Shown: positions 4,240 to 19,635 of the stretch, in pieces
Layout: each line of letters begins with the position of its first letter
Numbering within the stretch: the first letter of the stretch is position 1
Virus record (IMG/VR): IMGVR_UViG_3300028197_000139
Span: 1 to 25,596 of that record
DNA length: 25,596 nucleotides
Strand: one strand, 5' to 3'
From: a virus
The notes under the pieces: model-generated
Told to the model about the DNA's origin: nothing
Database searches by the model: none
Seen by the model: the letters and a program-made list of their open reading frames with translations, nothing else
Translations under genes and position numbers: made by a program

Positions 4240-5653
4240 CGTTTCCTAAGTTAGTAATAAAAGATCTTAACTTAGTACTGTCTGCTTCTGCTTTAATCTT
4301 AGGTGCAGTTGTTCCTGCGTCTGGAGTTGCATTAGGATCTGTAACAGTAGATTGTCTTTTGAATCCACTTAGCAGACTGTTGTTGCTTGGTGATGTTGCA
4401 CCATCCTCATCATCCTCATCAAGATCTATAATACGTAGTGTATCAATATCAAAGCCTAAATCAATCTTTTGTCCTACACCGCCACTGTTACGTGTCTTCA
4501 TTAGCTGTAGTTGATAACGTCCACGTTCACGCATAGCCCTACTTGTAAAGATACCAAACACATTATCAGCAGTTTGTATCTTACTAAGTCCACCACTGAT
4601 GTGCGAATGATCAAATTCAATTTCTTCTACAGCACCTCTATTCAACTGTGCCGCAGTTACAAATACTGTGTTCAATTCCATTGCTAGGTTACGTAGTTCT
4701 TCTGATACAAACTTATCTTTAATGTACAAGTTCTCTGCACTAACCTTTGCACCGTTCGGCATAAGCAAGTCTAAGTAATCGATCAATAATACATCAATCT
4801 TCTTGCCTGTTTTAATTTCATATTCTTTAATATAACTTCTTACATCATTAGGCGTCTTACCACTAGGCATATACTTAACTTGAAATGCTCCATTCTTCTT
4901 ACCTATCATCTTAACTTTCATCTCAACGTCATCAATGTTTTTAAATATCTCACGACTTGGAATACCAGTTATCATACTATCTACACGCATACTAACCAAG
5001 CTCTCACTAAGCTCAAGTGTTAGATACAATACGTTAAGTCCTGCCGCGGCCCAGTTCACTCCTAGGTTTGCTAAGAACAAACTCTTACCTGCACCTGATC
5101 CACCTGCAAATATATTAAGCTCACCTCTGTTGAACCCACCAAATAGTTTCTTATCAATGGCGGCCCACCCTGTACTTACTTGTCCGTTTGTACTCTTAAT
5201 TGCTTCTAGTCTTGCTCTAGGGTCTGCCCAATAGTCTGTACCCAAGTCTTTCTGCAATCCTATTTGTACTGCTTTCTTAACTAAGTCCTCTACTGGACCA
5301 TACTCACCTTTCTCAAGTAAGTCTGCACCTTTAAGTATTGCACTCTCTAATGCTTTGTGTCTACTAAATGTTTCAAACTCTGCAAGTAACCAATCATAAT
5401 GATTCTCTTGTAAGTCACCTGGGCTCTGTAGTCCTGCTTGTGTTGCCGCATTAATCATTTCAAACGTAGGCAATGCATTATGTTCTATAACATAATCACT
5501 AAGAAACTTTGCTGGTGATTGTAATCTTCTATCAAAAGACTGTGGATCAAATACAGTTTGACATCTAACAAATGTTTCTGCATCTGTTAACATCATTTCT
5601 AGATATACTTTTTGTATATCATATCCATAGTCTGTGTTTTGTCTAGTTGTCAT
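4226..5653 (-). CDS. 41: Replicative DNA helicase, T4 gp41 / DnaB type
   Basis: A 475-residue hexameric helicase that unwinds DNA at the fork and works with the gp61 primase. The N-terminal helical domain spans about residues 1-140 and the RecA-like domain about 155-415. Visible motifs are Walker A GGSGAGKS (184-191), Walker B VLLIDYLDLL (about 288-297), the H3 motif TAAQLNR (333-339) and an arginine-finger region LMKTRNSGGVG (384-394). The length equals T4 gp41 (475). The acidic tail ending NLGNDDDE resembles flexible C-termini that bind partner proteins. A perfect TTGACA-17-TATAAT promoter lies 6 nt before the ATG and there is no SD, so a leaderless mRNA is likely. First gene of its unit. 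Confidence 0.96.
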   Translation of the reverse strand: MTTRQNTDYGYDIQKVYLEMMLTDAETFVRCQTVFDPQSFDRRLQSPAKFLSDYVIEHNALPTFEMINAATQAGLQSPGDLQENHYDWLLAEFETFSRHKALESAILKGADLLEKGEYGPVEDLVKKAVQIGLQKDLGTDYWADPRARLEAIKSTNGQVSTGWAAIDKKLFGGFNRGELNIFAGGSGAGKSLFLANLGVNWAAAGLNVLYLTLELSESLVSMRVDSMITGIPSREIFKNIDDVEMKVKMIGKKNGAFQVKYMPSGKTPNDVRSYIKEYEIKTGKKIDVLLIDYLDLLMPNGAKVSAENLYIKDKFVSEELRNLAMELNTVFVTAAQLNRGAVEEIEFDHSHISGGLSKIQTADNVFGIFTSRAMRERGRYQLQLMKTRNSGGVGQKIDLGFDIDTLRIIDLDEDDEDGATSPSNNSLLSGFKRQSTVTDPNATPDAGTTAPKIKAEADSTKLRSFITNLGNDDDE

Positions 5654-6655
5654 TTACTTATTATACCATATATTATCAGGAATGTCAAGATGTTTTTTAG
5701 TTTTAGAAAGTACTGCTCCAATACAACTACCAGGGTCTCCAGGGTTCTTAGGAACATATATGTTCTTCCAGTCTTGGCTAATAGTTTCATTAGCTTGTTT
5801 GTTTAATGCACAGCCTCCTACAAGTATTAAATTTTTACTTGGTAAGTTTTTTATACACCAATCACTAAGTGATTTAAGTATACGTTCGTATATTGCTTGT
5901 GTAGCATATGCAAGGTTGTTCATATCTTTTTTACTTGTAAGCTCAGGCATAAACCAATTACACCCTTTGTGTAGGTTATGTTTAAAATGAACTCCGGGTA
6001 TTGCGCCATCTAGTTCATCGTCAATAAAAGCCTTAGTTACTAAACCAACTAGACTATCATTACCTTTCTTTGCCATTTCAGCAATCTTATATTCATCTCT
6101 ATTAGCAACAAGTCCACAACGTTGTGTCATTGCACTATAAAACAGTCCAACACTATGCGGATAGCTTTGTGAGTAAACAGATTTAAGTTTACGTTTTTCA
6201 CCGTTCCATATAGTAAGAGTTTCAAACTCTCCAATACTGTCTAAACATATTACTGTTGCACTACGTTCCATAAACGGACTTGTATAATATCCGTAGGCCG
6301 CGTGTGCTTCGTGGTGTTTAGCATATACTATCTTACAGTCAATATCCCATCGGGCTAGATATTTTTTAATATTATTTTCTTTCCAGTTCCATCCTTGGCC
6401 TGCTCTAAACTGTCTTAGTGTTTTTAGAAAAGGTTTTTCATACCAAACAATTAAGTCAGGTGACCCATACGTCTGTCTTGCAGTTTCTAGCATTGTCCAA
6501 TTAAAGTCAGGATCATTAGGTACACCAGTAAAGTCCTTTGCAAGACCTGCCCACTTCAGTTTAGTTTTAAGTCTGTCAGTTAATCCTGCAATCTTTGTTT
6601 CAAAGACTGCTAAACTAGCATCGTGGCTGTTACCAACCATACCCCAAGTAATCAT
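5654..6655 (-). CDS. Short carbamoyltransferase (NodU/CmcH/TobZ N-domain type)
   Basis: A 333-residue protein with the Kae1-like fold of NodU/TobZ carbamoyltransferases, which move a carbamoyl group from carbamoyl phosphate to an O- or N-acceptor via a carbamoyl-adenylate. The hallmark HHEAHAA is at 114-120, followed by VICLDSIGEFETLTIW, LVGGCALN and PGDPGSCIGA. Cellular members are about 500-600 residues and have a C-terminal Carbam_trans_C domain; here the protein ends after the PGDPG block, so that domain is missing. Similar short forms occur in marine T4-like phages. The ATG overlaps the upstream membrane gene stop (ATGA). The acceptor is unknown; a sugar or modified nucleotide is plausible. 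Its stop abuts the gp41 ATG. Confidence 0.85.
   Translation of the reverse strand: MITWGMVGNSHDASLAVFETKIAGLTDRLKTKLKWAGLAKDFTGVPNDPDFNWTMLETARQTYGSPDLIVWYEKPFLKTLRQFRAGQGWNWKENNIKKYLARWDIDCKIVYAKHHEAHAAYGYYTSPFMERSATVICLDSIGEFETLTIWNGEKRKLKSVYSQSYPHSVGLFYSAMTQRCGLVANRDEYKIAEMAKKGNDSLVGLVTKAFIDDELDGAIPGVHFKHNLHKGCNWFMPELTSKKDMNNLAYATQAIYERILKSLSDWCIKNLPSKNLILVGGCALNKQANETISQDWKNIYVPKNPGDPGSCIGAVLSKTKKHLDIPDNIWYNK
5660..5688 (-). promoter_or_regulatory. Sigma70-type promoter of gp41, leaderless geometry
   Basis: The minus strand has TTGACA (5688-5683), a 17-bp spacer and TATAAT (5665-5660), both boxes full consensus. The ATG of gp41 begins 6 nt after the -10 box, so +1 is expected at the A of the start codon. 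The promoter lies inside the last codons of the carbamoyltransferase gene. Confidence 0.88.
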
Positions 6656-6879
6656 TTATATTTCTTCCATAGTTTGTGTAATACGTAAAACCATACCCCA
6701 TTTATACAAGGTTCAACAAGTGCTACTGTACCTGCCTCCCATATACTTGCACCAGTCATCCAGTACACAACATTCATTGCTATTATAACATGACCGGAAG
6801 TATAAATTAATGCTAAAGCTAAACTTTCGTCTAACTTGTTTTTTATTACATTAAATATACCTTTTGTTAGTTCAGTCAT
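6652..6879 (-). CDS. DUF2061-like small membrane protein
   Basis: A 75-residue protein with two hydrophobic helices: about residues 20-42 (ALALIYTSGHVIIAMNVVYW) and about 47-67, ending WFYVLHKLWKKYK. The order helix-short turn-helix with a final Tyr/His/Trp-rich segment before a basic tail matches the DUF2061 family of small inner-membrane proteins, whose function is unknown. AGGAG lies 8 nt before the ATG and partly overlaps the stop of the 47-residue gene upstream. The TGA overlaps the carbamoyltransferase start. Confidence 0.75.
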   Translation of the reverse strand: MTELTKGIFNVIKNKLDESLALALIYTSGHVIIAMNVVYWMTGASIWEAGTVALVEPCINGVWFYVLHKLWKKYK

Positions 6880-6888
6880 TAATCGCTC

Positions 6889-7032
6889 CTATTTGTAGAT
6901 AAACGGATCTCTTTTTTGTAGTTCCTTAATTTTTTTATCTAATGCTTTTTGTCTTTTTCGTTCTTTGAACATCTCAGCCCAATATCTTAAAGGGAATGTA
7001 ACCTGTTCCCACATAGCTTTTAACCAAACCAT
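6889..7032 (-). CDS. 47-residue basic amphipathic protein
   Basis: A short gene beginning MVWLKAMWEQVTFPLRYWAE and ending in a Lys/Arg-rich helix (KERKRQKALDKKIKELQKR). The N-terminal half is aromatic and amphipathic and may lie on the membrane; the rest is strongly charged and probably coiled. AGGAG lies 5 nt before the ATG. The start overlaps the last 13 bp of the primase gene, and the stop lies 9 bp before the next ATG. It is missed by length cut-offs but has the signals of a real gene. Function unknown. Confidence 0.7.
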   Translation of the reverse strand: MVWLKAMWEQVTFPLRYWAEMFKERKRQKALDKKIKELQKRDPFIYK

Positions 7033-7997
7033 TTCTTGCTCCTTAGTTGTATTTTTAATTTATTAAACTCAGCTGATCCAACAATAGTATGAAGTGTGTA
7101 TATTTTTCCGTACTTTTGTACTGCTTCATTAACATCGTTTACATCTTCCCAGTCTGGCATTGCAACTCCCCAACCTAGCTCTATTGCCTGCTCAACTAGT
7201 TTATGTCCTGCATCATCTCTATCAGGAACAACAATTACCTTAGTATTAATACTATTAATTAGCATGGCTTGCTGATCTTTAATCTCACTTCCGAGCAATG
7301 CAACACCTTCAACAGCAATAGCATCGAAGGGTCCTTCTACTACAACTGTATATACACGACCGTTTGCTTGTGAATCTAAGTTGAATACATATCCTGGTTG
7401 CTGATTACTTAGGTACTTAGGCTTTGCACTATCTCTATATGACCTAGCAGTGAAGCCAACTATTTCATCATCGTGATAAAACGGAACTATCAATCTATCT
7501 CTATAGCCTAGTTTATCAGTCCAATAAAAATTATAGTCATCTAAGTATAGCTGTCTTGAATGTAAGTAGTTAAGCACAGGAACTAAGTTCTCAGGTATGT
7601 CTTGTGCATAGTGTGTTAACGGCTTTGCTCCTTCAGGTAGCTCTACTGTATTAAACTTAGGTAGCTCTAGTACTTGTTGTAATTCTATATTTTCTGTTTC
7701 AAGTACAGCAAGACTTACTTTAGTAATAGTAACGTCAGGTACGTTAATCCATTCCATTAACTTTTTCAGTTTATAACTTATCTTACGTCCAGGTTTCCAA
7801 CTTGCTTTGTATCCACAATTAAAGCAATGGTAGCTAACACCGTCTTGTTCGTTATTAATGAGTCCGCCACGCTGGCGCTTGTCTGCACTATCTCCGTTAT
7901 GTATACAACAGGGTGCATTAAAACTTATCCAGCCGCTAGGAGTTTGTTTCCTTTTAGAAGGCAAGTGTGCTACTAGTGTTTCAAAGACTATACTCAT
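7020..7997 (-). CDS. 61: DNA primase, T4 gp61 type
   Basis: A 325-residue primase (T4 gp61 is 342) that makes RNA primers for lagging-strand synthesis with gp41. The N-terminal zinc site is seen as Cys30, Cys31, His33, Cys58 and Cys61 (four of these presumably bind the metal). The TOPRIM core has the catalytic Glu221 in VVVEGPFDAIAVEG and the DxD pair in VIVVPDRDDAGHK (Asp259, Asp261). A perfect TTGACA-17-TATAAT promoter lies 6 nt before the ATG and there is no SD. It leads a four-gene unit ending with the carbamoyltransferase. Confidence 0.95.
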   Translation of the reverse strand: MSIVFETLVAHLPSKRKQTPSGWISFNAPCCIHNGDSADKRQRGGLINNEQDGVSYHCFNCGYKASWKPGRKISYKLKKLMEWINVPDVTITKVSLAVLETENIELQQVLELPKFNTVELPEGAKPLTHYAQDIPENLVPVLNYLHSRQLYLDDYNFYWTDKLGYRDRLIVPFYHDDEIVGFTARSYRDSAKPKYLSNQQPGYVFNLDSQANGRVYTVVVEGPFDAIAVEGVALLGSEIKDQQAMLINSINTKVIVVPDRDDAGHKLVEQAIELGWGVAMPDWEDVNDVNEAVQKYGKIYTLHTIVGSAEFNKLKIQLRSKKWFG

Positions 7998-8003
7998 AAC
8001 ACT

Positions 8004-8032
8004 ATTATAGCGTCTTATAGGTTAAATGTCAA
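8004..8032 (-). promoter_or_regulatory. Sigma70-type promoter of the primase, leaderless geometry
   Basis: On the minus strand TTGACA (8032-8027) starts directly after the TAG of the structural gene. A 17-bp spacer and TATAAT (8009-8004) follow. Six nt later comes the primase ATG. Both boxes are full consensus. Expected +1 is the A of ATG. Confidence 0.88.
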
Positions 8033-8803
8033 CTAGTTTCGGTATAAAATTTTATCGATTGTTCCAGAATTACCAGAGTCGTTAGCAAACTTAAATCTAA
8101 CATAATTGAATACACCGTTAAAGCTGTAAGGTATAGGAGCAGTTGGTGAAGATAATGTAACTGTACCAAGGTCTGCCCAGTTACTAGTATCACTAGAGCC
8201 TGATAGTGTAGCTTGTATAGTAACAGTACCTGCAAAGCCTGTGGAGTATATAGCCGCTGTATGTAATGCTTCATTAGCATTTTGCTCAGGGTGTGATTCA
8301 GCTACTGAGCTAATAGAGTCAAGGAATGTATTAATATTAGTAGAGTCTTTTGCACCTGGGAACGCACTACCAACAACTTCAATAGTACCCTTAACGCCAA
8401 ATTGTGTATCAGCATATGTTATTGCATTTGTAGAGTCTGAAGTCTTAGTTAGGTAAACAGTAAAGCTCATATACTGAGATTTATAGTTAAGTAGGTCGTT
8501 GTCTGTAATAGTAACTGTGAACTGCCCTTTGAAGTTAGGTGTTGATGTTTCTTTAATGGTTCCTGTATACTCTTTTACAATGTTGCCATCTTCGTCGAAC
8601 AAATGTAGGTAAGGTGTGTAAGTACTAAGTATGCTTACAGGTTTATGATCTGCATTTTTTATTTCAAAGGTTAAAGTATTGTCTATTCCTCTGTTTACTT
8701 TTAGGTTACGTTGATACACTTTGTTATACTCCGTGTTGGTGACGAACTCATCTATGATAAGTACGTTGTGATTAGCGACTAAATATCTAGGTGTTAATTG
8801 CAT
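8033..8803 (-). CDS. Virion structural protein of T4-like marine phages
   Basis: A 256-residue, beta-rich, Ser/Thr-rich protein. The start MQLTPRYLVANHNVLI and the following VYQRNLKVNRGIDNTLTFEI pattern resemble a virion protein found in many T4-like cyanophages, usually annotated only as structural. Repeated immunoglobulin- or lectin-like beta stretches run to the end (FNYVRFKFANDSGNSGTIDK), as expected for a baseplate or fibre-associated part; the exact location is unknown. A T4-late-type GATAAATA sits 5 nt before the ATG with no SD, fitting late expression. It stands alone: the primase promoter begins right after its stop. Confidence 0.75.
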   Translation of the reverse strand: MQLTPRYLVANHNVLIIDEFVTNTEYNKVYQRNLKVNRGIDNTLTFEIKNADHKPVSILSTYTPYLHLFDEDGNIVKEYTGTIKETSTPNFKGQFTVTITDNDLLNYKSQYMSFTVYLTKTSDSTNAITYADTQFGVKGTIEVVGSAFPGAKDSTNINTFLDSISSVAESHPEQNANEALHTAAIYSTGFAGTVTIQATLSGSSDTSNWADLGTVTLSSPTAPIPYSFNGVFNYVRFKFANDSGNSGTIDKILYRN

Positions 8804-8808
8804 ATAAT
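8803..8808 (+). promoter_or_regulatory. Possible -10 box for the divergent plus-strand gene
   Basis: A perfect TATAAT on the plus strand, with the gene's ATG at 8825 about 10 nt after the expected +1. The -35 position is poor (TAAATA at 8780-8785), so this is a weaker call than the minus-strand promoters. It interleaves with the late element read the other way. Confidence 0.4.
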
Positions 8809-8816
8809 TATTTATC
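8809..8816 (-). promoter_or_regulatory. T4-late-type promoter element of the structural gene
   Basis: The minus strand reads GATAAATA, then five nt (ATTAT), then ATG at 8803. In T4, late promoters are TATAAATA at -13 to -6 and need no -35 box. That rule places +1 on the A of the ATG, so the mRNA would be leaderless. Confidence 0.65.
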
Positions 8817-8824
8817 GGAAAACC

Positions 8825-9193
8825 ATGCTAAGAAATGATATAGAAGAAAAATTTCCATTCTTGAGCGTTGTAACATACGGCGGGCAGGAGTACATTGGAA
8901 TTATCAACAACCAAGACAATTTTGTAACGACAATGTATGTCTATACAAATTTAAGGTCTGAGGTTGAAAAACAAGGTTTCGTTGACGTTGGAGAAATATG
9001 GTGGTGGGAATCAAACAGGATGATTCCTATTAATATTTTCCTTACAAAAGAAATGGAACCATTTAGATACTGTATGCAGACTATGAACAGTAAAGATGTT
9101 AGGATTACACTTGGGCCAACAGTTAATCTTAATAATTTAAGCGTAAAAAGGGTGAAGAGAAAAAGCGTTCAGTTACTTAAGAAACCTAAGTAA
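8825..9193 (+). CDS. Conserved T4-like cyanophage-type protein, unknown function
   Basis: A 122-residue soluble protein and the only confident complete plus-strand gene. It starts MLRNDIEEKFPFLSVVTYGG and contains VDVGEIWWWESNRMIPINIF, a pattern I associate with an uncharacterised protein conserved in T4-like marine phages. The tail is basic (VKRVKRKSVQLLKKPK), which could bind nucleic acid. I chose the ATG at 8825 over one at 8798 because the longer form would overlap the divergent structural gene; GGA lies 7 nt before the chosen ATG. Its end overlaps the end of the opposing gene at 9186 by 8 bp, with no terminator between. Confidence 0.8.
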   Translation: MLRNDIEEKFPFLSVVTYGGQEYIGIINNQDNFVTTMYVYTNLRSEVEKQGFVDVGEIWWWESNRMIPINIFLTKEMEPFRYCMQTMNSKDVRITLGPTVNLNNLSVKRVKRKSVQLLKKPK

Positions 9194-9413
9194 TATTATT
9201 CTTCCATTGTATATACGTAACATAGTCAATTACAAGTAATTGAATAAAAAATCCTAATGGTGTTAGGATAGTTCCGAATAGGGCAAACGGAATAATAACT
9301 GTCCAAAAAATTATTCTCCATATAATTCCAAAGGCTTGATCTCTGGGCCAAGCCCATTCAGACCATTTTGGTATTGGAGTTTTCTTTCTGTAGTCTTCGA
9401 ATTCCCAATTCAT
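9186..9413 (-). CDS. 75-residue membrane protein
   Basis: The first 28 residues are polar and Trp-rich (MNWEFEDYRKKTPIPKWSEW). One long or two short hydrophobic helices follow (IIWRIIFWTVIIPFALFG and LTPLGFFIQLLVI), and the end is polar. GAGGAT lies before the ATG, within the end of the upstream gene, and the two genes are 3 bp apart. It is the last gene of the long unit that starts at 19600. No known family is recognised with confidence. Confidence 0.65.
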   Translation of the reverse strand: MNWEFEDYRKKTPIPKWSEWAWPRDQAFGIIWRIIFWTVIIPFALFGTILTPLGFFIQLLVIDYVTYIQWKNNIT

Positions 9414-9416
9414 ATA

Positions 9417-9659
9417 CTAATCCTCTAAGTAATCATCTATGTGTTTTATACTATGTGTGTTAATAAAGATAGGTGTATCTTCACCTACCCAACTTCCGAT
9501 TACGTTATATTGAAAATGCTCGATTGCATCTTCTTCACTCATATCTTTCATTAACACAGCAATACATTCTTCGTAATCATATATTGCAACTTGCTCTCTG
9601 CTAAACGCACTTATTGAACTTCCGACAAGTGCTTGTTCAAATCCATCAGCTAACTTCAT
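9417..9659 (-). CDS. Conserved small phage protein, unknown function
   Basis: An 80-residue acidic soluble protein (MKLADGFEQALVGSSISAF at the start; YDYEECIAVLMKDMSEEDAI and NVIGSWVGEDTPIF further on). This pattern recurs in T4-like cyanophage proteins of unknown function. I chose the ATG at 9659 over a GTG at 9674 because AAGGA sits 8 nt before it. Its start overlaps the DnaE-like gene end by 14 bp. No catalytic motif is seen. Confidence 0.75.
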   Translation of the reverse strand: MKLADGFEQALVGSSISAFSREQVAIYDYEECIAVLMKDMSEEDAIEHFQYNVIGSWVGEDTPIFINTHSIKHIDDYLED

Positions 9660-10215: not shown

Positions 10216-10721
10216 TAGAAATAATTCACATTAATTGTTACACGAAATTTATCATCAGTACAAGTTGAACTAAAGTGTGCTTCACTAGGATCAAATAATA
10301 AAATACTATTCTCTATTGAGTCTACCTTTGTACCGTCATTTGTAGTTGTATATCCGTTGTTAGTATTTACAAAATATACAGCACCGTTATGACTAAATGG
10401 TTCATCTATGTGCGGATCATGTTCAAGTATAGTTTCAGTTGCAGGATATAAGTTTCCTTTAACACGTATTAAACTTCTTGGTTGTAGTTGTTGCATTAAC
10501 GGCATTAGTATTTGTCCAAACCATTCACTAGCTGGTGCATGGTCCCAGTAGAACGGATGGTACATATAGAATTCATTTTTAGTATCACTGTTTTGCGAAT
10601 CAGAAACATTACGAGACAAGTACCAAGGAAACTGTGTATGATTAACAGTATCAAGATTACACATTACATTTTTAATTTGCTCGTGTGCTTCTTTTGGCAA
10701 AAAGTTTTGTACTACTTTCAT
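10215..10721 (-). CDS. 2OG-Fe(II) oxygenase (prolyl-4-hydroxylase-like)
   Basis: A 168-residue single-domain dioxygenase. Candidate iron ligands are His104 and Asp106 (HDPHIDEPF) and His149 (SEAHF), with Arg160 (KFRVTINVNYF) for 2-oxoglutarate binding. These enzymes hydroxylate proteins, nucleic acids or small molecules using O2 and 2-oxoglutarate. Such proteins are common in T4-like marine phages, mostly with unknown substrates. Its ATG overlaps the peptide deformylase stop as ATGA, and its stop overlaps the DnaE-like gene's ATG. Confidence 0.85.
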   Translation of the reverse strand: MKVVQNFLPKEAHEQIKNVMCNLDTVNHTQFPWYLSRNVSDSQNSDTKNEFYMYHPFYWDHAPASEWFGQILMPLMQQLQPRSLIRVKGNLYPATETILEHDPHIDEPFSHNGAVYFVNTNNGYTTTNDGTKVDSIENSILLFDPSEAHFSSTCTDDKFRVTINVNYF

Positions 10722-11206
10722 CTATTTAATTTCCTTGCTTTTTTTGTAGCCATATCCCATTTAAGTTTACTAACACGATCTTTAAATGTTATTCCTTGTA
10801 GATGATCCCATTCGTGTAGAAAGCATTTAGCACTATAGCCTTCAATCTTACCTTGTTGTTTTACAAGACGTTCATCGTACCATTCTGCAAGTATCTCTCT
10901 AGGTCTTGTAACCCTTACATATATTCCTGGAAAACTTAAACAACCTTCCATATCCATTACTGTTTCTTCTGTATGTTGTAGTATCTTAGGATTAATAATA
11001 ATAGATGTGTTCTGTTCTTTATCTCCCATAACAAATACTTGTGCATTAAGTCCTATTTGATTTGCTGAAAGTCCTATGCCATTATTAGATAACATACATT
11101 CAATCATTTCTTTACGTAGCTCAATAGGATCTCGTATTGGATTTTCAAGATCAAGATCGTCAACTTTTTTATCTAAAAATTCATCCGGGTAATATATTAG
11201 TTTCAT
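10718..11206 (-). CDS. def: Peptide deformylase
   Basis: A 162-residue metalloprotease-fold enzyme that removes the N-formyl group from new proteins. All three signatures are present: GIGLSANQ (43-50), EGCLS (87-91, with metal ligand Cys89) and HEWDH (131-135, with ligands His131 and His135 and catalytic Glu132). The length is typical of phage forms, which lack part of the C-terminal helix of bacterial enzymes. In cyanophages these are thought to help process short-lived host or phage membrane proteins. It sits between two 2OG oxygenase genes. The ribosome site is weak; it may be coupled to the gene ending 1 bp upstream. Confidence 0.95.
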   Translation of the reverse strand: MKLIYYPDEFLDKKVDDLDLENPIRDPIELRKEMIECMLSNNGIGLSANQIGLNAQVFVMGDKEQNTSIIINPKILQHTEETVMDMEGCLSFPGIYVRVTRPREILAEWYDERLVKQQGKIEGYSAKCFLHEWDHLQGITFKDRVSKLKWDMATKKARKLNR

Positions 11207-11207
11207 A

Positions 11208-12720: not shown

Positions 12721-13162
12721 CTTTTTTATCAATCCCGTGGTCTTGGGCAAGTCCAAGCAATTCTTTTTTTGTAGATATTCTAGCAAGTAGTTCTACCTCA
12801 TCTCGTTTCATGTTAGGAAATAACTTACTCAAAAACTTTGTTGCCTTAGAGTTATCTCCTGCTTTCTTTTTATATCCTATCCATTCGTGATATTCAATTT
12901 TATTTGTGTTACCGCTTAAACATAACAGTTGCCATAATAGTTTTTTATGTTTTTGTAGTGTAAAGAAGTGTTTGTTGTAGTACTCGTTTGTTTTAAATAC
13001 TGCAAGTTCTTGATTGTCCCTACTACCTTTTATACTAGATGTGTATCTGTTTAACAGATAAAAACTAACTTGTTTACGTTGTTCGTCTGTAAGTTCATCC
13101 CATACATCTTTAGCACCCATATCAATAGCACCAAGTATATCTTTTAATGGAAGTTTATTCAT
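12707..13162 (-). CDS. Conserved phage protein, possibly clamp-loader small subunit-like
   Basis: A 151-residue helical, Lys-rich protein. Its middle (NEYYNKHFFTLQKHKKLLWQ) and its C-terminal helices (DEVELLARISTKKELLGLAQ) are laid out somewhat like short gp62 proteins of T4-like cyanophages, which pair with gp44 to load the sliding clamp. I could not verify this and gp44 is not in the window, so treat it as a lead only. The ATG overlaps the FkbM gene stop by 8 bp. A sigma70-type promoter lies 35 bp upstream (13197-13225), which would give this gene a leader of about 28 nt. Confidence 0.7.
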   Translation of the reverse strand: MNKLPLKDILGAIDMGAKDVWDELTDEQRKQVSFYLLNRYTSSIKGSRDNQELAVFKTNEYYNKHFFTLQKHKKLLWQLLCLSGNTNKIEYHEWIGYKKKAGDNSKATKFLSKLFPNMKRDEVELLARISTKKELLGLAQDHGIDKKDVSI

Positions 13163-13595
13163 AATATGCTACCGTGCCGTTGTTGTATTCTATTATATTA
13201 TACTTGAGATTCTTCAAAAAGTCAACCACTAACTTATTGTTGTTAACTAGTATAACTGGTTTTGATTTAAGTATAGTTTGTATTGCACCTTTAAGTACTT
13301 GCAAGTCAAACTCTCCTGTGTTTATTTTTATAACGTCTACAGTAGTAAATCTAAATTCGTCTAATGTTTTTTGATCTATTACGTATTGCCTTGTTCCGTC
13401 TTTAATAATAACTTCTTTATTAAGGTCTCCTAAAGCATATGGAAACATTTTAATAGTATTAGGTATTAAAATATTTAGTACAGGGTTAGGTTCAAATGCA
13501 TACACTCTTGTAAACTTACTAACGTATTCTGTACAAGCATTACCGTCGCCAGCGCCTATGTCAATATACGTTCTAAAGTTCTTTACGTATTCCAT
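13155..13595 (-). CDS. Short FkbM-type methyltransferase
   Basis: A 146-residue SAM-dependent methyltransferase fragment or minimal form. The SAM-binding motif I is YIDIGAGDGNACTEYV (10-25), followed by VYAFEPNP (31-38). The FkbM signature region TTVDVIKINTGEFDLQVLKG stands where family members usually have DFIKIDVEGFELEVLKG; Asn and Thr replace the Asp and Glu of that motif. Usual family length is 200-280, so it is compact. FkbM enzymes often O-methylate sugars. It overlaps kdsB by 23 bp, which suggests a role with the Kdo genes, but this is inference. Confidence 0.75.
   Translation of the reverse strand: MEYVKNFRTYIDIGAGDGNACTEYVSKFTRVYAFEPNPVLNILIPNTIKMFPYALGDLNKEVIIKDGTRQYVIDQKTLDEFRFTTVDVIKINTGEFDLQVLKGAIQTILKSKPVILVNNNKLVVDFLKNLKYNIIEYNNGTVAYYE
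13197..13225 (-). promoter_or_regulatory. Internal sigma70-type promoter inside the FkbM gene
   Basis: On the minus strand TTGACT (13225-13220), a 17-bp spacer and TATAAT (13202-13197, immediately followed by a second overlapping TATAAT) are read through as codons of the FkbM gene. Expected +1 is near 13190, about 28 nt before the ATG at 13162. Unlike the other strong promoters here, it would not give a leaderless mRNA. Confidence 0.6.
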
Positions 13596-14271: not shown

Positions 14272-15031
14272 CTATAGTCCTTTCGAAATCATCTAAGTGT
14301 AGCATATTGGGTCCGTCACTGGGTGCATTGTCAGGATCAGTATGAACTTCTAAAAAGAAATTCCTAATCCCCAAAGCACTACCTGCCCTACATAAACCAG
14401 GAACGTAATTGCGATTGCCGCCGCTACTGCCTCCGAGACCGCCAGGTTTCTGTACGCTGTGGGTGGCATCAAGAACCACAGGGGTATCGTAATTACTAAG
14501 CATGTAGTCCAAGCCAGTAAAATCAACAACAAGGGTATTGTATCCAAAACTTGTTCCTCTCTCTGTTATCCAAACTTCTTTGGCACCTTCTGTCTTTGAC
14601 AGTATACCATTCATGTCCCAGGGTGCAAGGAACTGGCCTTTCTTTATATTTACTATCTTGTCTGTAGCACAAGCCGCCTGTAACAGATCTGTTTGCCTAC
14701 ATAAGAATGCTGGAATTTGTAATACATCTACTGCATCATTAAATTCTCTTACTATATGTGCAACCTGCACATAGTCATGTACATCAGTAAGTGTTTTAAT
14801 ACTTACGTTCATGTATTTTATTTTTTGTTTAATAGTAGCAAAGTCTGTTAATGTTTGTTCCATACCAACACCACGCTTACCTCCTAAGCTACTTCTATTA
14901 GCTTTGTCATAACTTGCTTTGAATATATATTCTGCACCATACTTATGACACACGTCTGCACAATGTTGTGCAATCTCTAAGCTATGTTCTAAACTTTCGT
15001 GTTGGCAAGGCCCAGCTATAATTTTAATCAT
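14240..15031 (-). CDS. kdsA: Kdo-8-phosphate synthase, metal-dependent class
   Basis: A 263-residue enzyme condensing phosphoenolpyruvate with arabinose-5-phosphate to Kdo-8-phosphate. Signatures include FKASYDKANRSS (37-48), DVLQIPAFLCRQTDLL (102-117), VNIKKGQFLAPWDM (127-140) and DATHSVQKPGG (188-198). Cys9 in AGPCQHES, His191, Glu228 and Asp239 match the metal ligands of class II enzymes such as that of Aquifex; metal-free enzymes like E. coli have Asn at the first site. I chose the ATG at 15031, overlapping the phosphoribosyltransferase stop (ATGA), over a GTG four codons earlier. KdsD and KdsC functions are not encoded nearby and would come from the host. Confidence 0.95.
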   Translation of the reverse strand: MIKIIAGPCQHESLEHSLEIAQHCADVCHKYGAEYIFKASYDKANRSSLGGKRGVGMEQTLTDFATIKQKIKYMNVSIKTLTDVHDYVQVAHIVREFNDAVDVLQIPAFLCRQTDLLQAACATDKIVNIKKGQFLAPWDMNGILSKTEGAKEVWITERGTSFGYNTLVVDFTGLDYMLSNYDTPVVLDATHSVQKPGGLGGSSGGNRNYVPGLCRAGSALGIRNFFLEVHTDPDNAPSDGPNMLHLDDFERTIDEIHSYSYTR

Positions 15032-15447
15032 GGCGTATTCCACGGCGGAGTTGGCATTGTAAATAGTGCTTTGGTGTGATAAGGGTTTACATTGCTAGGC
15101 TTTCTAGCAAACACTACCCAACGATATCCTTGACCCATAGACCACATTGGATATTCTTCTTTAATAAAATCTAACATACTTGTGCCTGTAGTAAACACAT
15201 CATCACAGATCATAATTTGATCTGTGTCGTTACCACTTGCATATTCATTCATTGCTTCTGCAAATTTGAGTCCACCTCTTGGAATACCAACTGCTTTATA
15301 AAAAGGTCGAGTTTGGTGATCCATAACCATTTTTGCTAGGCAACGCCATTCATCATCTGTAATAGCATCGCATTCTATCTTCCAACTCATAGGAATACCT
15401 GCATGACTAATAAAATCTAATTTCTGAAATAAATCAATATTGCTCAT
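15028..15447 (-). CDS. Phosphoribosyltransferase-fold protein
   Basis: A 139-residue type I PRTase-like protein. The PRPP-binding signature IMICDDVFTTGTSM is at 78-91, and GIPRGG at 54-59 fits the pyrophosphate loop region. The N-terminal hood resembles orotate- or xanthine-type enzymes but is short. The base substrate cannot be read from the sequence. Such proteins occur in T4-like marine phages and may act in nucleotide salvage. Its ATG overlaps the upstream stop and its stop overlaps kdsA (both ATGA). Confidence 0.85.
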   Translation of the reverse strand: MSNIDLFQKLDFISHAGIPMSWKIECDAITDDEWRCLAKMVMDHQTRPFYKAVGIPRGGLKFAEAMNEYASGNDTDQIMICDDVFTTGTSMLDFIKEEYPMWSMGQGYRWVVFARKPSNVNPYHTKALFTMPTPPWNTP

Positions 15448-15704
15448 TTACTATCCTTTACTACATGGAATATATCCATGAGTTTGTCTAATTGTTTTTT
15501 TACTGTAATATATTTTTCAGCTGACATCATAACTTCTTTCCAAGTATCGTAATCTACAATACCCATTTCTTTAGCTACTCCTTTTGAGTCTCCACCTATT
15601 ATCCATCTTGGTATTTTATTATGTGGTGGGTCACGATAACGAGCAAACACAACACCGTTGGCTCGCTCGTATATCAGTGCTTGATCGGGTATAAGATTAC
15701 CCAA
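15444..15704 (-). CDS. Conserved small phage protein, TTG start
   Basis: An 86-residue soluble protein. Its N-terminal half (ALIYERANGVVFARYRDPPH) is a short beta-type block I associate with T4-like cyanophage proteins of unknown function; the C-terminal half is helical and Lys-rich. The only usable start is TTG at 15704, with AAAGGG 9 nt before it, placed inside the stop region of the Lys/Ala-rich gene 6 bp upstream. No catalytic residues recognised. Its stop overlaps the phosphoribosyltransferase ATG. Confidence 0.7.
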   Translation of the reverse strand: MGNLIPDQALIYERANGVVFARYRDPPHNKIPRWIIGGDSKGVAKEMGIVDYDTWKEVMMSAEKYITVKKQLDKLMDIFHVVKDSK

Positions 15705-15709
15705 TCTAC

Positions 15710-15862
15710 TTAACCCTTTTTAGCTTTTATCTTACGAGGTGCTGGTTTTTTAGCTGTAGTCTTTTTAGCTGTAGTTTTCTTAGCTGGGGCTTTTTTAGCT
15801 TTTGGCTTTTCTACTACTTCATCCTTTTTACCTGTAAAGAAGTTTAAAATTTTTCTAAACAT
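15710..15862 (-). CDS. 50-residue Lys/Ala-rich histone-H1-like protein
   Basis: A short gene with a good Shine-Dalgarno (TAGGAGAACTT) before its ATG. After MFRKILNFFTGKKDEVVEKP, the product is made of KAKKAPAKKTTAKK-type repeats and ends RKIKAKKG. This composition is that of the C-terminal tails of histone H1 and of bacterial nucleoid proteins such as HctB-like or AlgP-like tails; it should bind DNA or RNA through charge. The coding DNA is a 15-nt tandem repeat. It lies between a cupin gene and the TTG-start gene in the uvsW unit. Packaging or genome compaction is a guess. Confidence 0.75.
   Translation of the reverse strand: MFRKILNFFTGKKDEVVEKPKAKKAPAKKTTAKKTTAKKPAPRKIKAKKG
15751..15810 (+). 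repeat. 15-bp tandem repeat in the Lys/Ala-rich gene
   Basis: Four units start with TAGCT at 15751, 15766, 15781 and 15796, each 15 bp (for example TAGCTGTAGTCTTTT). They encode five-residue AKKTT/AKKxP repeats on the minus strand. The first two units are nearly identical and the later two have diverged. Length change by slippage is expected. Confidence 0.8.
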
Positions 15863-15875
15863 AAGTTCTCCTATT

Positions 15876-16235
15876 TTATTTTTTTATTTTTGTTCCAACA
15901 GTTCTACGCACAATATCATTGTGGTTAAACTCGGCCCAATACAGTTCAAACGCAACTCCATCTTCGAGTCCTTCAAACTGGTGAACCTTACCCGGTTTAA
16001 CTTGGGTAAAGTCTCCTGCTTCTAGTATAGTCTCATCAACGAGACCATCTTGATCATCTTGCCAAACTCGAACAAGCATCTTGCCCGATTCAACAAAGAA
16101 TCCGTTCCACTTAAATTCATGTGCATGTTCACTACACTTGAATCCTGAATTAAATTCAATACGGTGAAATTCTAGTACACCGTTAGCATGGATCAATTCT
16201 GTTTGACCCCATACCTTTCCTGCTTTAATTCCCAT
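15876..16235 (-). CDS. Cupin-domain protein
   Basis: A 119-residue single-cupin protein. The first cupin motif is seen as CSEHAHEFKWNGFFVESG (34-51, with His37 and His39), and the second as PGKVHQFEGLEDG (81-93, with His85). These give a three-His metal site. Small cupins act as sugar epimerases, isomerases or dioxygenases, or as sensors; the substrate cannot be read here. A strong AAGGAGG lies 8 nt before the ATG, and the ATG overlaps the TGA of the membrane gene upstream. Confidence 0.85.
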   Translation of the reverse strand: MGIKAGKVWGQTELIHANGVLEFHRIEFNSGFKCSEHAHEFKWNGFFVESGKMLVRVWQDDQDGLVDETILEAGDFTQVKPGKVHQFEGLEDGVAFELYWAEFNHNDIVRRTVGTKIKK

Positions 16236-16399
16236 CAGTAATCCTCCTTAAGGTTATCTGGTATCATATATAGTTCTTGGTCCCAGTCTTGTATTTCCAT
16301 TGTATAGTAACTGTATACATTTTCTACTTCTGGTATATAGATAATAATAAATTGTGCAATAAGGATTATTGCTAATATTTTGATAGTATTATTTAACAT
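16235..16399 (-). CDS. 54-residue single-span membrane protein
   Basis: It starts with MLNNTIK, has one hydrophobic helix (ILAIILIAQFIIIYIP) and continues with an acidic, aromatic tail (MEIQDWDQELYMIP). The ATG directly follows the TAA of the upstream gene, and its TGA overlaps the cupin ATG, so translational coupling is likely. No family is recognised. It is one of at least four tiny membrane proteins in this window. Confidence 0.7.
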   Translation of the reverse strand: MLNNTIKILAIILIAQFIIIYIPEVENVYSYYTMEIQDWDQELYMIPDNLKEDY

Positions 16400-16906
16400 T
16401 TAAAATAACTCCCCGTACTTGACGATTTCTGTTTGACGTGTGACATCTTTAATAAAATATGCACACATTGGATTCTCGCCGGTAGTAAGCGGTACACTTA
16501 GTAATTGGCCATTTTTCATTTTTGGAAAATACCATTTAACATCATTATAAAAATTAGTTACCTTAACAGGAGCAAACTCAGGTTTGAAACTGGTTAACGG
16601 ATTAAAGATAAATGCTTCAAATCCTCTATCTCCAATACTTGTTAATGGTAAAACTTCTAAGTCGTTTCCGCTATCACTACATCCAACTGCCAGGTGCCAA
16701 TCAATAGGCATCTGTACTTCATATCCACCTATGTCCATAAGGATCGCAGGTGAACTAAAACTTTCTAAAAAGATTAAAGGTAAAAAGAAAAAATCTGGTA
16801 CATCGTTATCAGAATTGTCAAGCACACTGAAACGTATGTCTTCTTCAATTTGATCGGGTAACAGATTTAGATCTAATGTTTTGTTTTCTAAGGTCATTAT
16901 ATGCAT
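16400..16906 (-). CDS. Conserved protein next to uvsW, unknown function
   Basis: A 168-residue, largely beta protein. The segments YEVQMPIDWHLAVGCSDSG, RGFEAFIFNPLTSFKPEF and DVKWYFPKMKNGQLLSVPL follow a pattern I associate with an uncharacterised protein of T4-like cyanophages; no catalytic motif is visible. ATG 16906 lies 1 bp after the uvsW stop; a second ATG three codons on (16897) is also possible. It is probably expressed with uvsW. Confidence 0.8.
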   Translation of the reverse strand: MHIMTLENKTLDLNLLPDQIEEDIRFSVLDNSDNDVPDFFFLPLIFLESFSSPAILMDIGGYEVQMPIDWHLAVGCSDSGNDLEVLPLTSIGDRGFEAFIFNPLTSFKPEFAPVKVTNFYNDVKWYFPKMKNGQLLSVPLTTGENPMCAYFIKDVTRQTEIVKYGELF

Positions 16907-16907
16907 A

Positions 16908-18365
16908 TTAGTTCCAGTCTATTTTTTCGATTGTAAAAGGGTACTCTGCCTCTTTGTAGAATTTCTTACGTTGAGTCAAGTGTCGCTTTGCAAACTTACA
17001 TGAAGATGTAAGATCCCATATTTGTACAAAGTCTTTGTCTTTTGCCTTTCTTACGCCTCTACCAATTGATTGGATTACCCGAACAAAAGATTTTCCAGGT
17101 TCAATAAGTACAAGATTAAAGATCCTAGGTATATTAATACCCACTGCCGCAACTCCGTAGGTTGCAATAATAACTTCATTAGTACCTTCTTTAATCGTAT
17201 CATACGTTTCCTTGCGGTCTTTTAATTTAACATCGCCTTTAATGAACACAGAATCTTCTATGTGTTCTTGTAACATTTCGCCAGCACTAATTCTATCTAC
17301 AAGTATTAATGTGTTACCTGACTTCTTAATTGAGTTTAACATTTTGCCTATGTACGTTATCCTATCTTTGTTAGTAACAAGATATTTTAATTCTTCTTGG
17401 TAATTACTATGTGCAGGAATGTCAAGTAACTGACAAACGTTTACATGACATTGTGCAAGTACACCTCTATCTTGTAATTCTTTTGCTGTAATATTACCTG
17501 TAACAGGACCTAGACTTGCAAGTATACTTTGAAATTCAAACTGTTCTTTTGGTATTGTTCCTGTTAGTCCCCAACGTATTGGAGCATTACGCAAGTTACG
17601 TGTGAGTAAGTTTTTAAGCACTTCTGCTTTTGCTTGGTGTACTTCGTCAACAATAATTGTACTGACACCTTCTAAAAACTCGGCAAGACTCAATATGGCA
17701 GTACCGTCTTTATTTTTTTTATCTAGAATATTTAGACTTTGCCAAGTACAAATAGTATGAGTCTTGCCTAGTTCTTTCCTATCACCAAAATACACACCTA
17801 CATCTAAGCCACAGTTAATATAGTCTTCCTCAGTCTGCGTGACTAGACTTTTATTGGGAACCACTACCAGGCTACGCCCGTAAGTTTCTGTTAACTTGCT
17901 CAGTGTCGCAGTTATGATAGTCTTGCCTGCTCCAGTTGCAACTTCCTGCAAGGCCTGGGGGTTACTTAAGAAGTTATTGACTACCTCAACTTGATAGTCC
18001 CGCAACCGGATTGTTTCACCTTCAGCAGGATGTCCTTTGGGCCAACATGTGTCTTTCCAAAAGTCTTCAGCTACTGTAGGAAATTTAAAATCAATAGAAG
18101 CACGTCTATCTATTACATCTGTAATTTCAACGCCACTATCGATTAAGGTATTGACAATAGTATCAAGATGATTAACATATCCTGTACCGCCAATACCGAA
18201 GAAAGCTACCTTACCATCCCAACGCCCTAGTTTATACTGAGGCATATAACGAGCATAAGGTACCTCGAATTTTAATTTATTTGCTATCTTACGTCTGTAT
18301 TCAACCGGAAGTCCTTCAACCTTCATATTAACTTCATCTTCGATAATAATCTTACATGTTGTCAT
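16908..18365 (-). CDS. uvsW: UvsW-type SF2 DNA helicase
   Basis: A 485-residue superfamily 2 helicase (T4 UvsW is 502). UvsW unwinds R-loops and branched DNA and promotes fork regression, so it favours recombination-dependent late replication. An N-terminal DNA-binding part (1-115) precedes the Q-like motif LRDYQ (121-125). Motif I is ATGAGKT (143-149), motif II is DEVH (240-243), motif III is LTGT (267-270), motif V region IIATYGVAAVGINIP (399-413) and motif VI QSIGRGVRK (432-440). The ATG overlaps the TAA of the 411-residue gene. There is no strong own promoter, though a TTGACT-17-GATAAT lies about 50 bp upstream (18419-18447). Confidence 0.95.
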   Translation of the reverse strand: MTTCKIIIEDEVNMKVEGLPVEYRRKIANKLKFEVPYARYMPQYKLGRWDGKVAFFGIGGTGYVNHLDTIVNTLIDSGVEITDVIDRRASIDFKFPTVAEDFWKDTCWPKGHPAEGETIRLRDYQVEVVNNFLSNPQALQEVATGAGKTIITATLSKLTETYGRSLVVVPNKSLVTQTEEDYINCGLDVGVYFGDRKELGKTHTICTWQSLNILDKKNKDGTAILSLAEFLEGVSTIIVDEVHQAKAEVLKNLLTRNLRNAPIRWGLTGTIPKEQFEFQSILASLGPVTGNITAKELQDRGVLAQCHVNVCQLLDIPAHSNYQEELKYLVTNKDRITYIGKMLNSIKKSGNTLILVDRISAGEMLQEHIEDSVFIKGDVKLKDRKETYDTIKEGTNEVIIATYGVAAVGINIPRIFNLVLIEPGKSFVRVIQSIGRGVRKAKDKDFVQIWDLTSSCKFAKRHLTQRKKFYKEAEYPFTIEKIDWN

Positions 18366-19600
18366 TAAATAACTCCCGTCATCTTTCTTGTATTAGGATT
18401 ATAAAACTTTTGGAAAGTATTATCTTCGTAATACAGTTGAAAGTCAAATGTTTGTATGTACATGTTTACCTTTTGTAGTCTTCCTCCAAGTGAGTTTTTA
18501 AATGAAAAAACAGACGAAGGCTTCCAGTCACTTCTTAATAGTGGCTTAGGAAGTTTAATATTATTAATATACACTACTTTAGTATGTTTGTCAACCATAT
18601 TATTAAGTTTATTTTCTTTTACAAATGAATTAAAATTATCTCCTTTAGGACTATCTAATCTAAATAACACAGCCATTTCTTCTATAGGAATAATATTCTT
18701 AAATATAGAATGCATTAACACCAAATGATCATATGCGTCATCTTGTTCGCAAACTACTAGTAAAGGTAGTCTTTTTAGTTCTAGTAGTACATCAATAATA
18801 GCATTAAGATGATAAGTTTTTTTATCAACTACGATTATTTCGTCTTTACGATTAACAACTTTTTGTCCTAGAATACTTAGTTTTGAGATTGCTTTAGATA
18901 CATCTTCAAAATAATCTAAGCCATATAAAAATCTTCGATCGTAGTACAATGCTAAATTTTCTTCAACATCGCCTAGTGTTTCTTTTAGACTTGTTACTGC
19001 TAAGTTAGGAATATTACGTAATTCGTTATTATAAATTCCAGGAATAAAATTATCTTTATCGTTATCAATATCAACAAGTTGTTCGTATATCTCTAATATT
19101 TGCTCTTCAATAATAAATTTAGTTTCAAAACGTTTAGCTATCTTTACTAATCCAAAAAGAGTTTTAGTTGAATAGGGGAATGCATGAGTATTAGTATCTA
19201 ACTTTTGCTGTTCTATTCTTTGAAACCTACGTAACTCTTCAAGTCTATCTATAATTTTTTTACTAAACGGAAAACGCATTGTTAAAATAGTTTCACCAGT
19301 TTTATCTTTTGCTATTTTTAGTTCGTGAGTTCTATCAATTTGTCGTAGTGGATATTTTAAATTTTTAACACATTCATCTACGTCTACATCTCTAATATAT
19401 AATGCATGATAATAGGTTTCAGAAAGTAACTTTGACTTAACAAGTTCGTATTGTCTATCAGTTAGTGCAATGCCACGATCTAGTTGCCTAGCAATGCTAG
19501 ATAAAATCTTAACATCAGAATCTAGTATAGTAAACCATTTAACTGGATCACGTAATAGGTAGAGGAGGCAATCTTCACAAGTATTAATTTTAATAAACAT
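18365..19600 (-). CDS. 411-residue unknown protein coupled to uvsW
   Basis: Charged, Lys-rich and helical. Near residues 10-110 it is unlike anything I recognise. In the C-terminal 150 residues, LLELKRLPLLVVCEQDDAYD, then THTKVVYIN-like strands and a short Ser/Arg/Gly-rich stretch (FKNSLGGRLQKVNMYI) recall the order of a helicase C-terminal RecA lobe, but no Walker A, DEAD or motif VI is present. It may be a degenerate helicase-like partner for UvsW; this is a low-certainty inference. Promoter TTGACT-17-TATAAT lies 6 nt before the ATG with no SD, and the stop overlaps the uvsW ATG. It is the first gene of a unit of about 10 kb. Confidence 0.75.
   Translation of the reverse strand: MFIKINTCEDCLLYLLRDPVKWFTILDSDVKILSSIARQLDRGIALTDRQYELVKSKLLSETYYHALYIRDVDVDECVKNLKYPLRQIDRTHELKIAKDKTGETILTMRFPFSKKIIDRLEELRRFQRIEQQKLDTNTHAFPYSTKTLFGLVKIAKRFETKFIIEEQILEIYEQLVDIDNDKDNFIPGIYNNELRNIPNLAVTSLKETLGDVEENLALYYDRRFLYGLDYFEDVSKAISKLSILGQKVVNRKDEIIVVDKKTYHLNAIIDVLLELKRLPLLVVCEQDDAYDHLVLMHSIFKNIIPIEEMAVLFRLDSPKGDNFNSFVKENKLNNMVDKHTKVVYINNIKLPKPLLRSDWKPSSVFSFKNSLGGRLQKVNMYIQTFDFQLYYEDNTFQKFYNPNTRKMTGVI
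18419..18447 (-). promoter_or_regulatory. Weaker candidate promoter upstream of uvsW
   Basis: The minus strand has TTGACT (18447-18442), a 17-bp spacer and GATAAT (18424-18419), inside codons of the 411-residue gene. Expected +1 is about 45 nt before the uvsW ATG. One mismatch in each box makes it weaker than the other promoters listed. Confidence 0.35.
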
Positions 19601-19606
19601 ACGTAT

Positions 19607-19635
19607 ATTATAGCTTAATTTATCTTAGAAGTCAA
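19607..19635 (-). promoter_or_regulatory. Sigma70-type promoter of the uvsW unit, leaderless geometry
   Basis: The minus strand has TTGACT (19635-19630), a 17-bp spacer and TATAAT (19612-19607), then 6 nt (ATACGT) and the ATG at 19600. The -35 box falls within the last codons of the upstream glycosyltransferase-like gene. Expected +1 is the A of ATG. Confidence 0.85.

Follow-up and report, generated by a model that had tools for sequence, protein, structure and literature searches.

A stretch of viral DNA of 25,596 nucleotides (25.6 kb; virus record IMGVR_UViG_3300028197_000139, positions 1 to 25,596), hereafter the window, carries promoters of two classes at fixed and very short distances before the ATG start codons of genes, and the same arrangement recurs in related phages. 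From this geometry we predict that these are genuine leaderless genes, which have alternated in evolution with genes preceded by Shine-Dalgarno (SD) leaders, and we give this reading a probability of roughly 85%. The early class consists of sigma70-type promoters, TTGACN and TATAAT separated by 17 nucleotides (nt), and the late class of the element ATAAATA; the names early and late are assigned throughout from promoter type only. The closest cultured relatives of the window are jumbo phages, namely Agrobacterium Atu_ph07, Sinorhizobium Phosso, the Pseudomonas PA5oct group, Vibrio 2.275.O and Salicola SCTP-2, followed by the RaK2/121Q group.

In the proposed mechanism, a sigma70-type polymerase would start about 7 nt after the -10 box and a late, gp55-type polymerase about 6 nt after ATAAATA, and in each class the ATG would have been put on that base. 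The mRNA would thus begin with 5'-AUG and lack an SD site, and ribosomes would start on the terminal AUG, as is described for known leaderless mRNAs in the available part of the source (PMC4633059). Many later genes would use SD sites or overlaps. The rule suggested for the clade is that a gene is mostly either leaderless or equipped with a leader long enough for an SD site, with repeated switching between the two states.

Early-type and late-type promoters beside start codons

Four TTGACN-17-TATAAT sites occur in the window, three at a gap of 6 and one at a gap of 34, the gap being the number of nucleotides between the end of the -10-type element (TATAAT or ATAAATA) and the start codon. The three belong to the genes for a gp41-like helicase, a primase and a protein of 411 residues (full motif spans on the minus strand 5688-5651, 8032-7995 and 19635-19598, respectively), and they are the only exact matches to TTGACW-N17-TATAAT-N6-ATG in the record; a backwards control pattern gave none. 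Each of the three ATGs is the most upstream start codon of its own open frame, and at the primase gene the promoter and the 6-nt gap occupy the entire 35 bp from the upstream stop codon to the ATG. With up to two mismatches, five matches were found in the window against a mean of 0.65 in shuffled sequence, and none of 100 shuffles reached five. The exact motif before an open frame of at least 50 codons appeared in none of 400 fourth-order Markov copies of the window, so that shuffles and Markov copies together rule out chance as the origin of these sites. No SD-like sequence was found upstream of any of the three genes; an SD-like tetramer precedes 16 of the 36 listed window genes, taken with unrefined start codons. 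A first-pass annotation of the window had described these three promoters, had noted that none of the genes has an SD site, and had argued that repetition at three units is hardly accidental, and on all three points it was right.

For a wider view, primase and gp41 searches of viral contigs (80 loci each) yielded 155 distinct related loci; the source contigs measure up to 358 kb, and some loci share a contig and overlap. Duplicates of a site were counted a single time, ATGs opening frames of at least 50 codons were counted as starts, and GGAG, AGGA or GAGG at -16 to -4 was scored as SD-like. These loci and the window together hold 188 distinct TTGACN-17-TATAAT sites, with ATG starts at gaps 5, 6 and 7 numbering 16, 79 and 22 (117 in sum), only 4 at gaps 8-14, and 72 at gaps 15-40, 39 of which have an SD. 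GTG and TTG starts at gaps 5-7 amount to zero, against the 117 ATG starts. When one mismatch was allowed, the corresponding counts were 19, 107 and 38, then 9, and then 150 with 82 SD-bearing starts. An SD tetramer is found at 0 of the 117 starts at gaps 5-7 and at 39 of the 72 at gaps 15-40, a difference which is partly forced, since the -10 box fills that place. After removal of the three gene families (primase, gp41 and 411-residue) and addition of three large contigs, 235 of 382 starts were left, with 61 at gaps 5-7 and 8 at gaps 8-14. Among the 109 families represented in these remaining starts, 27 have a start at gaps 5-7 (9 per gap), 7 at gaps 8-14 (1 per gap), 46 at gaps 15-30 (2.9 per gap) and 53 at gaps 31-40 (5.3 per gap). 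Ascertainment was therefore rejected as the source of the early peak, which survives this removal. In Atu_ph07, Phosso, Vibrio 2.275.O and T4, no perfect TTGACN-17-TATAAT lies within 30 nt of any ATG, and by this perfect-site test these phages neither support nor contradict the early pattern.

Only three copies of the late element ATAAATA are present in the window, both strands together, and in two of them the ATG of a gene follows after exactly 5 nt. These two ATAAATA-N5-ATG sites (elements at 8815 and 24527) had escaped the first reading of the sequence. One precedes a 256-residue gene of virion-structural type, directly before the primase gene, and the other a gene for a 258-residue nucleotidyltransferase with a second, cupin-like part. 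In T4, the late class is described, in the part of the source available, as placing a TATA box about one turn of the helix ahead of the start of transcription (PMC2988020), a description which the offset of the late element here fits. Among 298 distinct ATAAATA elements in the related loci, ATG starts number 14, 44 and 8 at gaps 4, 5 and 6, with a second hump at gaps 17-26. Of six control heptamers, ATATAAA, AAATATA and TATAAAA lack such a peak. The three that can overlap the promoters do peak (TAAATAA at gap 4, AATAATA at gap 2, ATAATAA at gaps 3-4), and we presume these to be those promoters seen in a shifted register. AT-rich composition was thus rejected as the source of the late peak, three of the six controls being without it. 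The three large contigs (818 kb) contain 20 late starts at gap 5 and 28 at gaps 4-6, against a Markov mean of 1.05; the start codons at gaps 4-6 are ATG in 28 cases and GTG in 2. A match to HTVC008M gp099, a gp55-like sigma factor, was found in all seven records searched (the large contigs G001, G004, G005 and G006, together with PA5oct, T4 and HTVC008M itself), at 25-31% identity in G001, G004, G005, G006 and PA5oct. The late sites thus resemble T4-type late promoters both in the offset of ATAAATA and in the gp55-family match in relatives.

Bacterial RNA polymerase prefers a YR initiator, that is, a pyrimidine followed by a purine. A pyrimidine stands at position -1 in 129 of 155 early leaderless starts, compared with 95 of 182 leadered ones (Fisher 1e-9), and in 86 of 91 late leaderless starts, compared with 111 of 198 leadered ones (Fisher 2e-12), the rows being related in both comparisons. 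This is the YR initiator signature, and it is not a consequence of box geometry.

Table 1. Promoters and genes discussed in the text (positions in the window)
Feature	Position	Strand	Remarks
gp41 promoter TTGACA-17-TATAAT	5660..5688	-	6 nt to ATG at 5653; within 3' end of upstream carbamoyltransferase gene
gp41-like DnaB-type replicative helicase, predicted leaderless	4226..5653	-	T4 gp41 counterpart; PHROG 19, E 6.8e-71; Pfam DnaB_C
Carbamoyltransferase-like gene, last codons bear gp41 promoter	5654..6655	-	Pfam PF02543, E 6.7e-30
Primase promoter TTGACA-17-TATAAT	8004..8032	-	6 nt to ATG at 7997
DnaG-type primase, predicted leaderless	7020..7997	-	T4 gp61 counterpart; PHROG 47, E 2.7e-42
Promoter of 411-residue gene TTGACT-17-TATAAT	19607..19635	-	6 nt to ATG at 19600; overlaps 3' end of upstream gene
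411-residue protein, predicted leaderless	18365..19600	-	divergent phage family without named relative; family by tblastn and alignment
UvsW-like DNA helicase	16908..18365	-	directly downstream of 411-residue gene; PHROG 16, E 1.1e-74; SD GGAG
Fourth promoter TTGACT-17-TATAAT, leadered	13197..13225	-	34 nt to ATG at 13162; internal contrast
Late promoter element ATAAATA	8809..8815	-	5 nt before ATG at 8803
256-residue virion-structural-type gene, predicted late and leaderless	8033..8803	-	directly before primase; weak PHROG 14467 (head and packaging), E 3.5e-5
Late promoter element ATAAATA	24521..24527	-	5 nt before ATG at 24515
258-residue nucleotidyltransferase with presumed cupin-like second part, predicted leaderless	23739..24515	-	PHROG 7878, E 1.6e-29; PHROG 7851, E 8.4e-5

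The window also encodes a peptide deformylase (10718-11206; Pfam PF01327, E 1.9e-40), an enzyme that acts on the N-terminal formyl-methionine of new proteins.

Conservation and switching among orthologues and in cultured phages

Orthologues were dereplicated so that their upstream 45 nt were less than 80% identical. The best promoter of the primase gene lies at gaps 5-7 in 75 of 80 dereplicated rows (60 exactly at 6), against 1.4 in shuffles, six of the 80 having been collected by scanning for the motif. The other five rows have gaps of 8, 25, 28 and 29, and one is without a site. Across the 55 rows with gap 6 and spacer 17, pairwise identity is 0.89 in the -35 box, 0.37 in the spacer and 0.87 in the -10 box; these rows were picked for having the site, and the box identity is partly due to that selection. 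Boxes conserved against a free spacer are what a sigma70-type promoter would leave. On a quick tree of 86 rows, with long branches, the leaderless state of primase needs 3 changes. The rows scored as not leaderless are the RaK2 group, XaC1, Vibrio 2.275.O, Atu_ph07, Phosso and one uncultured row (gap 8), and for one row scored as leaderless (L229) the best site is nevertheless at gap 25. The upstream stop codon abuts the -35 box exactly in 34 of the 76 leaderless primase rows, leaving the core promoter as the whole intergenic space. A primase 47% identical is encoded on a 60-kb contig (L431, NZHE01000029.1) in a marine metagenome-assembled 'Rickettsiales' genome, with TTGACA-17-TAAAAT-6-ATG as read by eye. 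This only clear bacterial-genome match may hint at the host, or may be a binned phage contig or a binning error; a scan of 58 genomes of the same class gave any match in 9, with too few perfect promoters to bear on whether the host uses leaderless starts.

The gp41 gene behaves in a more changeable manner. Gaps of 5-7 are found in 29 of 87 dereplicated orthologues, against 0.95 in shuffles. Among the 58 others, 13 have their best site at gaps 22-27, mostly followed by an AAGGA-like sequence in the rows inspected, and 38 have no site. A quick tree of 84 rows, again with long branches, contains 27 leaderless rows, 18 leadered rows and 39 in neither class, and the leaderless label changes 18 times on it, 15 of these changes being forced by the starred branches. 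In the window and 17 other dereplicated rows (48 found), the gp41 promoter is embedded in the last codons of the upstream gene, and the peptide encoded across it is like IDFDPxVWYN. All 18 of these rows use GAC for Asp, a codon with a 34% share in the long open frames of the loci, and 17 of 18 write Tyr-Asn as TATAAT (background 68% TAT and 60% AAT); the 18 rows are related, and no formal probability is claimed. This synonymous-codon constraint indicates that the letters are kept for the gp41 promoter and not for the peptide alone.

The 411-residue family has gaps of 5-7 in 15 of 20 dereplicated members, against 0.25 in shuffles, the set being partly seeded with leaderless members. The first search for relatives of this protein found none, and tblastn within the fetched loci gave 46 matches. 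Sequence searches with the protein found nothing in PHROG at E 0.001 and nothing in PDB. Its fold model (mean predicted local distance difference test, pLDDT, 81; predicted template modelling score, pTM, 0.52) matches two uncharacterised phage proteins over the greater part of those two proteins, and helicase-like matches are weak and rank below these two. The family is wide and fast-evolving, and it adjoins the UvsW-like helicase gene.

Switching is also found in the late class. Among 80 dereplicated orthologues of the 256-residue gene (up to one mismatch in the element), the gap is 4-6 in 34 and 17-28 in 37, and 2 have no element; an SD-like sequence is present in 29 of the 37 leadered orthologues. 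On a quick tree (79 rows, 8 in neither class) the two states change at least 10 times. For the 258-residue gene, the gap is 5 in the window and in the three large contigs G001, G004 and G006, which makes four of the seven rows found.

Cultured phages differ in the same respect. HTVC008M, a phage of Pelagibacter, has 10 late-type starts at gaps 4-7, nine of them at gap 5, and all 10 are annotated starts of coding sequences; the genes include those for the tape measure, two baseplate wedge proteins, the tail tube cap, the DNA end protector and CsgF. Among the nine at gap 5 are the starts at 16007(-), 18916(-), 19456, 31132 and 49760. In T4, by comparison, there are 0 late-type starts at gaps 4-7 and 29 at gaps 15-40, 23 of them with an SD-like sequence, and syn9 likewise has 0 at gaps 4-7. 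PA5oct, which infects Pseudomonas, has 2 late-type starts at gaps 4-7. One of its genes, gp262, is a structural gene directly before primase with ATAAATA-5-ATG; the record tags it 'ESI-MS/MS', which attests the protein and not its route of initiation. The PA5oct primase itself shows TTGACA-17-TATAAT-6-GTG, and the window pair of a late leaderless structural gene followed by an early leaderless primase therefore recurs, as a prediction, in a cultured phage. The exonuclease gene gp244 of PA5oct has the same promoter type at gap 7; the start codons of gp262 and gp244 are at 144985 and 158242, respectively. The record annotates the primase start at a GTG directly after the -10 box, that is, at gap 0, and an in-frame GTG six nt later fits the promoter (NC_071039.1, 145884-145890); the annotated start is probably wrong. 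In Callisto and Paride, which are relatives of PA5oct, the annotated primase starts disagree with each other; Paride, whose record names PAO1 as host, carries the same primase promoter. A further perfect TTGACA-17-TATAAT-6-ATG in PA5oct (NC_071039.1, 12831-12868) has no annotated gene and no frame of 50 codons.

Alternative readings and contrary evidence

The strongest competitor holds that these genes are nearly leaderless. Transcription would start 1-3 nt before the ATG, and the tiny leader would be translated by another SD-independent route involving, for example, S1 or S21. Leaders of 1-3 nt would indeed give nearly the same geometry, which weighs against our own reading; gaps of 5 and 7 occur beside 6, late starts are also found at gaps 7-10, and sigma70 start sites vary by one or two nucleotides. 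An S21-like protein is encoded in four of the seven phage records searched (G001, G004, HTVC008M and PA5oct), with no S21 match in T4, G005 and G006. However, G006 has leaderless-type genes, so that the link of S21 to leaderlessness is loose. Against tiny leaders, moreover, the peaks sit at the expected +1 of each class, with offsets that differ accordingly (6 in the early and 5 in the late class), and the pyrimidine before the A matches the YR initiator. We consider this alternative improbable.

It is also conceivable that only genome compaction is seen, in that promoters are squeezed against genes in tight genomes, the first gene is translated mainly from read-through RNA by coupling or re-initiation, and the short transcript of the promoter serves the downstream genes. 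The exact contact of stop codon and -35 box in the 34 primase rows mentioned above agrees with this, as does an upstream stop codon within 20 nt of the ATG, or overlapping it, in 24 of 29 leaderless gp41 rows. Under compaction alone, however, the gaps should be scattered; the data instead show a spike at 5-7 and little at 8-14, early starts that are ATG only, and a base preference at -1. Genes outside the leaderless class, moreover, frequently carry a leader of at least 15 nt, many of them with an SD. Compaction alone is accordingly given a very low chance of being the explanation. Least likely of all, and rejected by the synonymous-codon test, is a coding artefact by which the gp41 promoter would just be the codons of a conserved IDFxPxVWYN-like peptide in the upstream protein: the peptide is encoded in 18 dereplicated rows, but their synonymous positions are fixed to promoter letters, the TGG-TATAAT context is absent in 20 of 27 leaderless gp41 rows, and the primase promoter of the window is intergenic.

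Several observations tell against the leaderless reading itself or limit its reach. Because the 155 loci are centred on primase and gp41, the raw peak is inflated, although it persists when these families are taken out; the loci are related, some lie on one contig, and the counts do not equal independent events. The primase and 411-residue sets were in part assembled through the feature that they display, by the six motif-scan rows and the leaderless seeds, respectively. When viral contigs with this promoter are sampled generally, a modest peak is present as well, with 16 of 108 starts at gaps 5-7, and in a general sample of 105 viral loci the late gap of 5 accounts for 7 starts among 414 elements. 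Thus, the clade is strongly, though not uniquely, enriched for early starts at gaps 5-7. In the three whole contigs, sigma70 sites with up to two mismatches give 25 starts at gaps 4-7 versus 112 at gaps 15-40, and late sites give 29 versus 77; leaderless genes are a selected minority there. The late 8-14 zone is sparse but not empty (18 starts, versus 66 at gaps 4-6 in the related loci), 7 of the 80 orthologues of the 256-residue gene fall at gaps 7-12, and 58 of the 87 gp41 orthologues fall outside the leaderless class. At the early gap of 7 the pyrimidine at -1 is only weakly preferred (22 of 37), PA5oct as a whole is without a general early peak, and P-SSM2 has one late start at gap 5.

On balance, genuine leaderless genes remain our preferred reading. 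The sparse zone at 8-14 nt, clear in the early and weaker in the late class, fits the rule that a leader is either absent or of SD length. The first-pass annotation had proposed that transcription starts on the A of the ATG, and had named a lack of enrichment of the 6-nt spacing in related genomes as what would speak against this; the scan of relatives found enrichment at just that spacing. The proposed start site has thereby come through computational tests that were able to refute it, and it appears well supported because of the gap-specific enrichment, the sparse 8-14 zone and the SD-bearing leadered class in the same genomes, together with the ATG-only early starts and the pyrimidine at -1. 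Two of its wider statements have to be narrowed. The arrangement had been presented as a feature of early promoters, and the early sites are real, but it is not peculiar to them, since late promoters share it with a 5-nt offset. Leaderless translation had been expected for the first gene of each early unit; the three cases of the window agree with this, but across whole contigs most promoters are not of the leaderless kind, and gp41 moves back and forth between the two states.

Leaderlessness might further act as a temporal gate that keeps early expression apart from late expression with no need of a terminator. Both in the window and in PA5oct, the gene immediately upstream of the early leaderless primase, on the same strand, is a putative late leaderless structural gene, and late transcripts are therefore expected to run into the primase frame. 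On such read-through RNA the primase start codon would be internal and without an SD, and only RNA from the primase's own promoter would be translated. We regard this extension as doubtful. If it were true, the repeated switching between leaderless and SD-leader states would be a switching of the temporal gate.

Relation to known leaderless systems

The pattern, to start on the ATG or to leave room for an SD, is a clean prediction, which can be tested in the cultured HTVC008M of Pelagibacter and in the PA5oct group of P. aeruginosa. It would also mean that geometry by itself suffices to find promoters in uncultured phages, and that some start codons, such as that of the PA5oct primase, are probably misannotated.

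Lambda cI is a classic example of an individual leaderless gene. In E. coli, leaderless genes of mobile DNA are described, in the accessible part of the source, as few cases, from lambda, P2 and Tn1721 (PMC4633059). The genes predicted here are like them in having the start site on the AUG, no SD and a place in mobile elements; unlike them, the window clade keeps or regains the state in many genes and in two promoter classes. In mycobacteria, nearly a quarter of transcripts are leaderless and a 5'-terminal ATG or GTG suffices, according to that source (PMC4633059). These, as in other bacteria, are cellular genes, whereas those of the window are phage genes. Among phages, Thermus phage phiYS40 is reported to have many leaderless transcripts, middle and late, which the available text ties to a shift in initiation factors (PMC3594737). 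The likeness lies in a phage with many leaderless transcripts, predicted here from promoter geometry; phiYS40 differs in that its host belongs to another phylum and its leaderless transcripts are middle and late, not early. The AR9 paper, in the part available, says in passing that phage transcripts are often leaderless (PMC5312081). Cyanophage late promoters NATAAATA have been described, with leaderlessness not mentioned in the accessible portion of that paper (PMC2984593). In the open-licence literature, as far as it was accessible, no report was found of T4-like or jumbo phages whose early or late genes are leaderless in this manner, which is weak evidence of absence.

With T4, the window and its relatives share a late class with a TATA box, and the relatives of the window have a gp55-like sigma match. 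T4 is different in that its late-type starts lie at 15-40 nt, with none at gaps 4-7; its gp41 has an SD, and neither T4 gp41 nor gp61 has such a promoter beside its start. Leaderless mRNAs are known from a handful of phages, and in this clade of aquatic giant phages they would represent a recurrent, selected-looking design, which spans two promoter classes that would use different sigma factors.

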